Assembly (NCBI GenBank): GCA_025361425.1
Contig: JANYAH010000037.1
Span: 1 to 64,000 of the forward strand
Origin: Candidatus Solibacter sp.
GTDB lineage: Bacteria; Acidobacteriota; Terriglobia; Bryobacterales; Bryobacteraceae
Direction of reading: 5' to 3'
Length of the DNA stretch: 64,000 bases
A program made the translations under genes and the position numbers. Positions 4,630 to 49,995 of the stretch are shown here, piece by piece. A model generated the notes under the pieces. That model was not told the origin of the DNA. It ran no database searches and worked only from the letters and a program-made list of their open reading frames with translations. Position 1 is the stretch's first letter; each line of letters opens with the position of its first letter.

Positions 4630-4937
4630 CGGAACGGCAAAATGCCTGCCATGCTTTCAACCGTAGGACAGGAATCCCGGCCTACATTTGGCAAGGGTCT
4701 GCGCCAATCGTGGGGCAGGCGCTTTCGCCTGCCAACCGCGCGCTCGACCAAGGCCAGGCCCGTGGATTCGCTGCCAGGCCAGCGCTGACCGGGTTGTACT
4801 CCACATAGCGAACGATACGGTCCAGCTCCGACACATTCTGGTCAACCCGGCAGCGACGGCGAACAGTAGAATCGGCAGCAGGATCGGCCTACGTGCAGTA
4901 CAGTGGTGGCCTGGCAAACTACGCTACTCTGTTGCCG
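4630..4937. other. Intergenic region with an extragenic palindrome
   Basis: About 300 bp without a supportable gene. It contains the GC hairpin annotated separately at 4710-4736 and an unstructured remainder. Short overlapping frames here look like chance open frames in GC-rich DNA. Confidence 0.5.
4710..4736 (+). repeat. REP-like extragenic hairpin, copy 1
   Basis: A 27-bp word starting GTGGGGCAGGCG and ending CCTGCCAAC that recurs identically at 49969-49995. Its core is a perfect 8-bp stem (4714-4721 with 4726-4733) around a CTTT loop. Both copies lie between genes. This looks like a dispersed extragenic palindrome. Confidence 0.8.
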
Positions 4938-23010: not shown

Positions 23011-24426
23011 ATGAATAACAACAAATCCCGTCCTATTACGTTCGGCCTGATCGTGGGCAACCGGGGATTCTTCCCGGACCACCTGGCGAAAAGCGGCCGC
23101 GAAGATATGATAGCGGCCATCGAAAAAGCGGGCTACGCAGTACTCACCGTCGGAGTGGAAGAGACCAAGTTCGGCGCCATCGAAAGCCGCAACGAATCGG
23201 CTGTCTGCGCCGACCTCTTCAAGCGCCGCCGCGACGAAATCGACGGCATTATCGTCACGCTGCCGAATTTCGGCGAAGAGCGCGCCATCGCCGACGCGCT
23301 GCGTCAAGCCAATCTGGACGTGCCCGTGCTGGTCCAGGCTACGCCGGACACCCCCGGCTTAATGACCATCCGGGACCGCCGCGATAGCTTCTGCGGCAAG
23401 ATGAGCGCGTGCAATAACCTGAAGCAGTACGGCATTCCGTACTCGCTGACCACGCTGCACACCGAAGCCCCGGATTCCGACCTTTTCCGCAAGGACATCG
23501 CCTGGTTCGCCGCCGTCTGCCGCGTGGTGCGCGGCCTGCGCCGCATCCGCATCGGCGCCATCGGCGCGCGTCCCTCGGCGTTCAACACCGTGCGCTATAG
23601 CGAGAAACTGCTCGAAGCCAGCGGCATCTCTGTGGAACCGATCGACCTCTCGGAGATTCTCGGCCGCATCGTCCGCATGAAGGACAGCGAGGCCGAAGCC
23701 AAGCTGGCCGCCATCAAGAAGTACGTCTCCACCGATCAGGTTCCCGCCGAAGCCCTGATGAAGATGGCCAAGCTCGGCACCGTGATCGATACCTGGATGG
23801 AGCAGACACAAGTCTCCATTAGCGCCATACAGTGCTGGACCTCGCTTGAAGAATTCTTCGGCGTGGTGCCCTGCACGGTGATGAGCATGATGAGCGAAAA
23901 CCTGATGTCGAGCGCCTGCGAAGTGGATATCTGCGGCGTGATCGGCATGCACGCCCTGCAACTCGCCAGCGAAACCCCCAGCGCCCTGCTAGATTGGAAC
24001 AACAATTACGGCGACGACCCGGACAAGGCCGTCTGCTTCCATTGCAGCAACTTGCCGAAGACCTTCTTCAAGAGTGTCAAGATGGACTTCCAGCAGATTA
24101 TCGCCGGCACCGTGGGCCGCGAGAACACCTACGGCACCTGCGAGGGCTTGGTGAAAGCCAGCCCGATGAGCTTCGCGCGCTTCTCCACCAACGATCTGGA
24201 AGGCAGCATCGATGGCTACGTGGGAGAGGGCGAGTTCACCGACGATCCGCTGACCACCTTCGGCGGCGCCGGCGTCGTCAAGATTCCGCATCTCCAAACC
24301 CTGCTGCGCTTCATCTGCGAAAACGGCTTCGAGCATCACGTAGCCGCCAACATGTCCACCGTGGCGTCCGCCGTGCAGGAAGCCACCGGCCACTACCTGG
24401 GCTGGAACGTCGCCATTCACGAGTAG
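23011..24426 (+). CDS. L-fucose/L-arabinose isomerase-fold sugar isomerase
   Basis: Protein of 471 residues with the FucI/AraA-type layout: N-terminal alpha/beta domains (FGLIVGNRGFFPDHLAKSG; IIVTLPNFGEERAIADAL) and a C-terminal domain (AVCFHCSNLPKTFF, YGTCEGLVKASPMSFARFS, HHVAANMSTVASAV). The His, Glu and Asp metal ligands of the family are plausible but cannot be assigned with certainty. Followed by ribulokinase and ribulose-phosphate epimerase genes, it most likely makes L-ribulose from L-arabinose, filling the place of a classical AraA, although other aldose substrates cannot be excluded. AGAGGTATAAACGAA supplies a ribosome site. Confidence 0.8.
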   Translation: MNNNKSRPITFGLIVGNRGFFPDHLAKSGREDMIAAIEKAGYAVLTVGVEETKFGAIESRNESAVCADLFKRRRDEIDGIIVTLPNFGEERAIADALRQANLDVPVLVQATPDTPGLMTIRDRRDSFCGKMSACNNLKQYGIPYSLTTLHTEAPDSDLFRKDIAWFAAVCRVVRGLRRIRIGAIGARPSAFNTVRYSEKLLEASGISVEPIDLSEILGRIVRMKDSEAEAKLAAIKKYVSTDQVPAEALMKMAKLGTVIDTWMEQTQVSISAIQCWTSLEEFFGVVPCTVMSMMSENLMSSACEVDICGVIGMHALQLASETPSALLDWNNNYGDDPDKAVCFHCSNLPKTFFKSVKMDFQQIIAGTVGRENTYGTCEGLVKASPMSFARFSTNDLEGSIDGYVGEGEFTDDPLTTFGGAGVVKIPHLQTLLRFICENGFEHHVAANMSTVASAVQEATGHYLGWNVAIHE

Positions 24427-24466
24427 GGCGCATTGGTATCATGACCGCGAGAAGGTGTTCAACTGT

Positions 24467-24584
24467 GGGGCGGACCCCCTGGTCCGCGCGGGTCCCCCTG
24501 GACCCGCTTCTCGCCAACGAAGTCAGCTATATCTGTACGGCGCCAGCCGACGGGGACGTCGGCTGCGGACCGGGGGTCCGCCCC
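24467..24584. repeat. Cluster of four hairpins bounded by a 20-21 bp inverted repeat
   Basis: The outer arms 24467-24487 and 24565-24584 are inverted copies differing by one deleted base. Each arm is itself a hairpin (24470-24476/24481-24487 with CCCT loop; 24565-24571/24575-24581 with GGG loop). Between them lie two more perfect 8-bp hairpins: 24488-24495/24500-24507 with CCCT loop and 24544-24551/24558-24565 with GGGGAC loop. It fills most of the isomerase-kinase gap. It resembles a compound extragenic palindrome that may stabilise or partly terminate the transcript. Confidence 0.8.
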
Positions 24585-24606
24585 TCAATGCAAGGAGATC
24601 TCTGAC

Positions 24607-26190
24607 ATGAGCATCGTCGCCGGAGTAGATTTCGGCACCCTCAGCGTGCGCGTTTCCATCTTCGACTCTGTCAAGGGCCGTCTGGGCGCGGGCGCCGCCC
24701 CGTACGCGCTGTTCCGCACCCAGGAAGACCCGGACCACGCCACGCAAAGCCACGCCGACCACATGACCGCGCTAGCCGCCGCCACGCGTCTCGCCACCGA
24801 AAACGCGGGTATCGATGGTCACGCAATCCAGGCCATCGCGCTCGATACCACAGGCTCCAGCGTGATCCCGGTGGACGCCCACCTCCAGCCTATAGACGAT
24901 TACTACCTGTGGTGCGACCACCGCGCCTGGCGGGAAGCCGGCGAGATCACCGCCGCCGCGCACGCCGCCAATCTGCCAGCCATCGACTGGTGCGGCGGCA
25001 TCTACTCCAGCGAATGGGGCTTCGCCAAATTGCTCCACTGGCTGCGCCACAATCCCGAGAAGCGCGGGCGCTTCGCCACCGCGTTGGAACATTGCGACAT
25101 GGTGGCCGCCGTCCTCTGCGGCATCACCGACCCCGCGCAGGTATCGCGCAGCATCTGCGCCATGGGCCACAAATGGATGTGGAACTCCGCCCTCGGCGGG
25201 CTGCCTCCGGAAGACTTCCTGGCCGGGCTGGACCCCACACTCGCCGGCGTCCGGGCGCAACTGGGCGGGCGCTACGCCACCAGCGACCAGATCGCCGGAC
25301 ACCTTAGCGAAGAGTGGGCCGTGCGCCTGGGTCTGCGCGCTGGAATCCCCATCCCCACCGGCGCCTTCGACGCCCACTGGGACGCCATCGGCGCCGGCGT
25401 CCGCATCGGCGACGTGGTCAACGTGGTAGGCACGTCCACTTGCATCATGGCGATTAGCGATAAGCCGAGTCTGATTCCCGGCGTCTGCGGCGTGGTGCAA
25501 GGCTCCATCCATCCCGGCTACACCGGGATCGAGGCCGGACTCTCCGCCACCGGCGATATCTTCGAAGCCATCGCGCGCCGCGCCGCCACCTCAGTGGCCG
25601 AGCTTTCCAAAGGCCTGGCGAACTACCGCGCCGGCGAAACCGGTTTGCTCCGCCTCACCTGGGACAATGGCGACCGCACCGTGCTGGTCAATCCCGAACT
25701 CAGCGGCATCACCCTCGGCTGGCGGCTCACCACCACGGCGCAGGACGAACTATTCGCCGCCATCGAAGGCACCGCCTTCCACACGCGCGTCATCCTGGAG
25801 CGCATGGAAGAGCACGGAGTACCCGTGCGGCGCATCATCAACGGCGGCGGCATCCCGCGGAAGAATGCGGTACTCAACCAGGTGTACGCCAACGTGATGG
25901 GCAAACCCATCCTGGTGCCCAAAGGCGATGTTACCAGCCTCGGCTCGGCGATCTTCGCCTTCATGGCCGCCGGCGCCTTCCCCACCATCGAGGCCGCGCA
26001 GGACCAACTCTGCCCCGGCTTCCTGACCATCGAACCAGAGCCCGTGCAGGCGGCCACCAGCCAGCAACTGTTCGCGCTCTATCGCAAGCTTTACTTCGCG
26101 TTTGGGCAGCGCACTTCGCCCGGCGTGAAGGCCGGCGATGTGCTGCCCGAGTTGCGCCGCATCGCCGCTCAATCCAGAGGAGGAAAATAG
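24607..26190 (+). CDS. araB: L-ribulokinase
   Basis: Protein of 527 residues in the FGGY kinase family with AraB character: VAGVDFGTLSVRVSIFD for phosphate 1, ALDTTGSSVIPVD, DDYYLWCDHRAWREA, the WMWNSALGGLPPEDFL segment, VVGTSTCIMAIS for phosphate 2 and INGGGIPRKNAVLNQVYANV for adenosine binding. It phosphorylates L-ribulose to L-ribulose 5-phosphate with ATP in the cytoplasm. AAGGAG nine bases before ATG supports the start. Its stop codon shares one base with the GTG of the next gene (TAGTG), so the kinase and epimerase are coupled. Confidence 0.9.
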   Translation: MSIVAGVDFGTLSVRVSIFDSVKGRLGAGAAPYALFRTQEDPDHATQSHADHMTALAAATRLATENAGIDGHAIQAIALDTTGSSVIPVDAHLQPIDDYYLWCDHRAWREAGEITAAAHAANLPAIDWCGGIYSSEWGFAKLLHWLRHNPEKRGRFATALEHCDMVAAVLCGITDPAQVSRSICAMGHKWMWNSALGGLPPEDFLAGLDPTLAGVRAQLGGRYATSDQIAGHLSEEWAVRLGLRAGIPIPTGAFDAHWDAIGAGVRIGDVVNVVGTSTCIMAISDKPSLIPGVCGVVQGSIHPGYTGIEAGLSATGDIFEAIARRAATSVAELSKGLANYRAGETGLLRLTWDNGDRTVLVNPELSGITLGWRLTTTAQDELFAAIEGTAFHTRVILERMEEHGVPVRRIINGGGIPRKNAVLNQVYANVMGKPILVPKGDVTSLGSAIFAFMAAGAFPTIEAAQDQLCPGFLTIEPEPVQAATSQQLFALYRKLYFAFGQRTSPGVKAGDVLPELRRIAAQSRGGK

Positions 26191-49968: not shown

Positions 49969-49995
49969 GTGGGGCAGGCGCTTTCGCCTGCCAAC
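49969..49995 (+). repeat. REP-like extragenic hairpin, copy 2
   Basis: Identical over 27 bp to 4710-4736, with the same perfect 8-bp stem and CTTT loop. It lies 20 bp after the cytochrome c stop and could also act as a terminator, since TTTTT-like bases follow at 49999. Confidence 0.8.

Follow-up and report, generated by a model that had tools for sequence, protein, structure and literature searches.

Inverted REP hairpins in intergenic DNA are familiar from the BIME/REP sequences of Escherichia coli. The repeat analysed here likewise consists of inverted REP hairpins in intergenic DNA, with a sequence and tag that differ from those of E. coli. It lies in a 64,000-nt stretch (hereafter the window) of contig JANYAH010000037.1 of Candidatus Solibacter sp., a bacterium of the same order as Solibacter usitatus. 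REPINs, as described by Bertels and Rainey (2011, PMC3116915), are dispersed intergenic units of two inverted, tagged REP hairpins approximately 100 nt apart that are tied to RAYT transposases and have two alternative folds, a long hairpin and a clover. The element in the window resembles them in all these respects, and differs from that description in having a second adjoining hairpin at each end and the tag GTGG. For TIRtrons and TIR repeats, the 2013 account (PMC3733652) describes RAYT-like genes between longer inverted ends, some of them doubly palindromic, with related repeats elsewhere, and Acidobacteria, Koribacter versatilis among them, are mentioned in it. The arrangement found here is similar, except that the outer hairpin keeps a GT[AG]G tag, a comparison made by description only; by the definitions of that account, the ends found here sit between REP and TIR. 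The class 3 TnpA(Y1) repeats of S. usitatus are also described as high-copy hairpins beside Y1 transposase genes (PMC6006769), whereas their CnGA foot and Y----Q motif differ from the GT[AG]G foot and the YIEENP RAYT found here. Among the papers listed on REPIN, RAYT and TIRtron repeats and on Acidobacteria/Solibacter, no title or opening of an abstract mentions this repeat family.

The element is located in the 180-nt gap between an isomerase gene and a kinase gene (Table 1). A first-pass annotation of the window had placed it in an ara operon, and this is roughly right: the kinase and the epimerase pass the corresponding family models, whereas the isomerase matches Fucose_iso_C (PF02952) and no AraA family was reported for it in the family-model search. 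The four hairpins and the near-exact inverted repeat noted there between isomerase and kinase were confirmed from the sequence and the fold energy: a near-perfect inverted repeat bounds a 122-nt, four-hairpin element with stems of 7–8 bp. The pattern of GC stems with CCCT- or GGG-type loops, ascribed at that stage to three hairpins, is shared by all four. The natural limits exceed the 118 bp given there (24467–24584) by two bases on each side, because the family consensus starts with GTGG and ends with CCAC. The 20–21-bp inverted repeat arises because H1 and H4, the outer hairpins, repeat a single sequence in opposite orientations; its arms (24467–24487 and 24565–24584) are perfectly complementary apart from a base that the right loop lacks. 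The loop of H4 is one base short of that in most copies. An inverted-repeat search reported a 16-nt part of these arms (94%).

Table 1 Features of the isomerase–kinase region, in positions of the window.
Feature	Start	End	Strand	Remark
Isomerase, Fucose_iso_C family	23011	24426	+	Stop 38 nt ahead of the element
Whole element (REPIN/TIR-repeat copy)	24465	24586	+	End-to-end match of covariance model R1
Left GTGG tag	24465	24468	+	G1, T2 and G4 invariant in 23/23 aligned copies
Hairpin H1 (left REP), 7-bp stem, CCCT loop	24470	24487	+	
Hairpin H2, 8-bp stem, CCCT loop	24488	24507	+	Both-sided changes at 5/8 pairs
Spacer between H2 and H3, 37 nt	24508	24544	+	Copies differ, poor conservation
Hairpin H3, 8-bp stem, GGGA loop	24545	24564	+	
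Hairpin H4 (right REP, inverted), 7-bp stem, GGG loop (3 nt)	24565	24581	-	
Right tag, degenerate	24583	24586	-	GAGG on the minus strand, not GTGG
AAGGAG, presumed ribosome-binding site of the kinase	24592	24597	+	Outside the element
Ribulokinase-like FGGY kinase	24607	26190	+	Passes ribulokinase model PRK04123
L-ribulose-5-phosphate 4-epimerase-like gene	26190	26879	+	Passes AraD model PRK08193

The covariance model was built from an alignment (A1) of 23 copies, 17 from the same genome and six from relatives; two internally deleted copies (L015 and L016) and copies missing one of the arms were left out, and one copy (L013) was added by hand. The window copy, itself part of this alignment, scored 126 bits (E = 6.1e-25). 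It is the sole row ending in TC, the other 22 of the 23 ending in CCAC. Together with the left tag, this gives the family the GT[AG]G tetranucleotide of REPINs at the hairpin foot, and the two REPs are inverted and a short distance apart. An Rfam scan reported no family above its gathering threshold, with two chance-level miRNA matches (the best 18.3 bits against 268 needed).

The region 24460–24595 folds with an energy of -88.5 kcal/mol (z = -6.8), a value reached by none of 200 shuffled sequences. Under the RNA energy model, pairing of arm to arm in a long outer stem gave -87.0 as against -58.5 for four separate hairpins, and the outer stem was again preferred with DNA parameters (-52.2 versus -37.3). 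The base changes among the 23 copies favour the four separate hairpins much more than the outer stem. In the four-hairpin model 95.5% of the cells are paired, and both-sided changes occur in 8 pairs and 25 cells, compared with 3.2 and 6.9 after shuffling; none of 500 shuffles reached either count under this control, which is lenient towards related sequences. Over the 14 pairs of the outer stem, one cell was changed on both sides, and 85 of 500 shuffles did as well. The outer stem was rejected as a maintained structure on these pair counts; its covariation score was reached by 17 of 500 shuffles, that is, some residual signal exists. RAYTs have been proposed to recognise single-stranded REP DNA, and the pattern agrees better with separate recognition of each hairpin than with selection on a long RNA stem.

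The arms were sought elsewhere in the genome, where their absence would have told against a dispersed element, and they were found in many places. BLAST with the element gave at least 54 matches in the same genome (40 of 114 candidates scored), and the covariance model gave at least 136 matches at no fewer than 96 distinct places (150 of 5703 candidates scored), at least 73 of which are 95 nt or longer. Among 70 fetched places, both arms were present in 41 and one arm in 29 when five edits in 23 were allowed. Another REP family (GGCAGGCG type) overlaps 3 of the 70, so that the weak tail of the 96 places may be mixed. The family thus comprises many dispersed copies in one genome, as REPINs do. 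DNA matches were obtained in 14 of the 41 genomes of the relatives set (own genome included); within the genus, the family was matched in seven of nine genomes, in G005 only once and weakly, and G004 and G007 have no match. The exact 25-mer of the left end occurs in at least 114 stretches of the public genome collection. Among the matches listed, these fall in 17 MAGs, many with peatland names, which are labelled Bryobacterales, Bryobacteraceae, Solibacteraceae, Candidatus Solibacter, Terriglobia or Acidobacteriia.

A different GTGG-tagged hairpin, GTGGGGCAGGCGCTTTCGCCTGCC, has two copies in the window (4710–4733 and 49969–49992) and 68 places in the genome within three mismatches, 20 of them exact (control 0). 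It or a variant lies close to several of 30 inspected copies of the four-hairpin element.

Placement was scored for 70 of the 96 places, one copy per locus. With a home-made, codon-based gene caller, 57 of the 70 copies are intergenic, as compared with 4.9% of 3618 random positions in the same loci, and 13 lie inside called genes; for copies with both arms, the intergenic count is 34 of 41. This extragenic location is again that of REPINs. An earlier caller always placed the start of an ORF at its first possible position and put 21 of 30 copies between genes (random positions, 12.3% of 1323); because of this crude rule it was replaced by one that selects the best-scoring start. Called genes stand on both sides of 48 copies, of which 31 lie between co-directional, 15 between convergent and two between divergent genes. 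At one other site, a related MAG (L160, Bryobacterales) lacks the element, and its flanks align at 79–80% identity; one flank is presumably mutS. In one pair of species (L120 and L223), the element occupies the same intergenic gap in opposite orientation, by inversion in place or by independent insertion. No copy was seen to move, nor was an exact pair of empty and occupied sites with undisturbed flanks found. Five copies (L002, L004, L006, L011 and L012) sit within longer flanking repeats (AATGCCGCATAC...), which in L006 are inverted on the two sides of the copy. Some copies in longer flanking repeats, near contig ends, may reflect assembly effects.

The genome yielded two Y1 transposases. 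L031 has the scores of an IS200-type protein, and no end of this repeat family was found around it, judged partly by eye. The other (P0001, on contig C306) has a Y1 domain with the HUH and Y..NP motifs expected of a RAYT: it matches PF01797 with 34.8 bits (cut-off 23), and NHVH and YIEENP are present in its sequence. Its score against NCBIfam REP_Tyr_transpos (NF047646) is 60 bits, under the cut-off of 80, yet this is the best-scoring NCBIfam model. A phmmer search with P0001 returned chains named TRANSPOSASE, the best being 2xm3 (E = 8.8e-5), together with a weak match to the TnpA-REP structure 4er8 (E = 0.023). The ORF is flanked by ends as in the repeats. Downstream, the end is intact, with hairpins of the sequences GGGCGACC and GCGGACC followed by CCAC. 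The upstream end is interrupted by another mobile element; it has a GGCCGACC hairpin, and its outer hairpin is truncated. In four relatives (L306, L307, L075 and L309), both ends are present around the RAYT. Association with a RAYT gene that has the repeat's own REP in its flanks is a trait of REPINs. Read on the minus strand, 7 bp of the H3 stem (AGCCGAC/GTCGGCT) are identical to the stem of the second 5'-end hairpin in the RAYT loci L306 and L308, and the window element therefore resembles the paired ends of such a unit from which the gene is missing.

An IS110-like element has one end that occurs seven times in the genome (L288–L294; C306:109–133), and six of the seven junctions lie within an outer hairpin of the four-hairpin family, directly after GACC or GGCC. 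One of these junctions adjoins the RAYT of C306. The seventh copy (L292) encodes a C-terminal fragment that matches NF033542 below the cut-off (E = 5.6e-5) and PF02371 with E = 0.096. Targeting of REPs by IS110 members is on record (PMC1525189).

The association of tagged ends with RAYT genes extends beyond this contig. We examined 54 RAYT loci, 45 of them with full flanks. A GT[AG]G-tagged hairpin was found upstream in 25, downstream in 23 and on at least one side in 32 of the 45, and a second adjoining hairpin in 22; in 1015 single control windows the corresponding numbers were 18 and 3. A stricter earlier count over 20 loci gave 10 upstream and 7 downstream (control 10/1488). At 16 loci with two ends, the ends of one RAYT are more alike (0.75) than those of different loci (0.32), a result matched by 0 of 2000 permutations. 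Over the 35 of the 54 loci in which an end was found, more similar RAYTs have more similar ends (Mantel r = 0.44, 0 of 5000). All 35 RAYTs that have tagged ends show the HUH pattern, and 30 of them show Y[IV]..NP. Ends of the GGCGGACC type occur on six of the eight RAYTs that are at least 68% identical to P0001. L077, 82% identical to it, has a downstream end of another family; L076 has no end downstream, and its upstream flank is cut. Among the repeat-rich genomes of the genus (G000, G001, G002, G003, G006 and G008), whose assemblies are fragmented, a close RAYT was found only in G000 and G001 (78%). The RAYT of G001 has no end in its downstream flank, the upstream flank being cut; the best RAYT of G008 reaches 58%, but its ends are of a different type, and identities of 43–49% are the highest in G002, G003 and G006. 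No RAYT relative was detected in 107 searched public left-end loci (of at least 114).

Isomerase relatives are present in 27 of 61 genomes. We examined 30 isomerase loci and counted the 20 with an adjacent kinase, leaving out the 10 without an adjacent kinase match. The element occupies this gap in its own genome and in none of the 19 relatives that have the two genes adjacent, a comparison proposed with the first-pass annotation that bears out its guess of an insertion. The non-coding flanks of the window site gave no match to relatives by eye. The gap measures 20 nt or less in 11 of the 20 genomes and 38 nt or more in nine; all nine long gaps fold more strongly than the shuffle mean, two of them weakly (z = -1.9 and -2.0). 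Dispersed repeats occupy it in four other genomes. That of G057, outside the genus, is a multi-hairpin repeat of which 16 near-complete copies, this one counted, are at least 83% identical, and that of G003 is another repeat with 53 matches (itself and both strands included). G005 has a GTAGGACAGG REP with 149 places within three mismatches (control 0), whose GTAG tag overlaps the stop codon of the isomerase, and G004 has a GTAGCGCAGG REP with at least seven other places sharing the first 22 bases among the matches listed; the REPs of G004 and G005 have a common core. With the inverted repeat in G007, a repeat or inverted repeat lies in the gap of five of the six genus genomes with the gene pair (own, G003, G004, G005 and G007; not G006), and the occupants are mostly of different families. 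Loci at which different species have different repeats or inverted repeats in this gap are L045, L046, L049, L052 and L069. The gap between transporter and isomerase is -5 to 21 nt in six measured genus genomes (own, G001, G003, G004, G005 and G006) and 219–249 nt in ten more distant loci; this comparison of two gaps was made post hoc, after the data had been seen, and the numbers are small. In G019, a GC-rich hairpin with T runs was seen by eye in the gap after the isomerase (L062), a possible intrinsic terminator between isomerase and kinase.

These observations lead us to assign a probability of approximately 0.9 to the reading that the cluster is a REPIN/TIR repeat without a RAYT gene of its own, which was inserted between isomerase and kinase by a RAYT encoded elsewhere and affects the operon only as a by-product. 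The first-pass annotation had offered a mobile REP-type insertion as one of its guesses, and this guess gains strong support from the genome-wide recurrence of the arms, from the relatives without the element in this gap and from the same ends beside RAYT genes. The element would represent both ends of a RAYT-bearing unit from which the transposase gene is absent. The ends are inverted, and each has a REP hairpin with the GTGG tag and, immediately next to it, a second hairpin. A RAYT, that of C306 being one candidate, would act on the tagged hairpins in single-stranded form, recognising them and copying or moving the unit chiefly to intergenic positions. The window copy would have landed in this lineage just 5' of the ribosome-binding site of the kinase and then decayed slightly, its right tag becoming GAGG and one loop base being lost. 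Both the movement by a RAYT and its chemistry are proposed here, as is the by-product nature of any effect on the operon.

The first-pass annotation had also suggested that the cluster attenuates or protects the mRNA, so that isomerase and kinase would be made in unequal amounts. In this reading it would be a cis-acting RNA element of the operon, whose long stem or hairpins attenuate transcription or shield the isomerase mRNA at its 3' end. REP sequences are reported to affect mRNA, and the very stable fold, the length of this gap relative to that of most genomes with the gene pair and the repeats or inverted repeats in the gaps of five of the six genus genomes would agree with such a role, which as the reason for the presence of the element is nevertheless unlikely and unsupported by the data. 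An intrinsic attenuator would require a GC-rich stem followed by a T run, and no such terminator-like site was found in 24380–24700. The family has many copies elsewhere in the genome, the element is absent from this site in all 19 relatives, and the local hairpins are retained through base changes far better than is the long stem preferred in RNA folding. Relative to co-directional genes, 16 copies have the same and 15 the opposite orientation, showing no bias; a regulator read as RNA might be expected to favour one orientation, though the two halves of the element are almost symmetrical. The mRNA may be affected secondarily: the element would probably lengthen the spacer at the cost of tight coupling between isomerase and kinase, and mRNA decay may be altered. 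Repeated occupation of the junction could reflect simple tolerance or selection. That it is a recurrent docking site, at which different repeats were captured separately and maybe kept to uncouple kinase translation or to stabilise the upstream mRNA, seems to us improbable; if true, it would amount to convergent domestication of selfish repeats as an operon tuner.

Two further explanations have very little probability in our judgement. A MITE unconnected with RAYTs, derived instead from a conventional DDE insertion sequence or an IS200-type element, would account for the terminal inverted repeats and the internally deleted look, and the genome does encode the IS200-like Y1 transposase L031; such ends are found around the RAYT of C306 and not around L031, however, no target duplication stood out by eye in the 30 inspected copies, and the end sequence tracks the RAYT sequence. 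A binding site or chromosome-structuring repeat kept for the benefit of the host would agree with the high copy number, the intergenic location and the excess of convergent over divergent positions, and is equally hard to maintain: this placement is expected as well from insertion followed by purifying selection, and the family is patchy within the genus. The cluster belongs to the REPINs, a known kind of element, and does not resemble a purpose-built switch of this operon.

The analysis settles the identity of the cluster and is a caution against taking intercistronic structures of this sort for regulators. Should the recurrence of repeats at the junction exceed permissiveness, it would provide a testable example in which selfish repeats have been recruited to set the ratios of proteins. 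The searched genomes of the Bryobacteraceae type, with dozens of RAYTs, many of which have their own tagged double-hairpin ends, constitute a natural data set for RAYT–repeat recognition.
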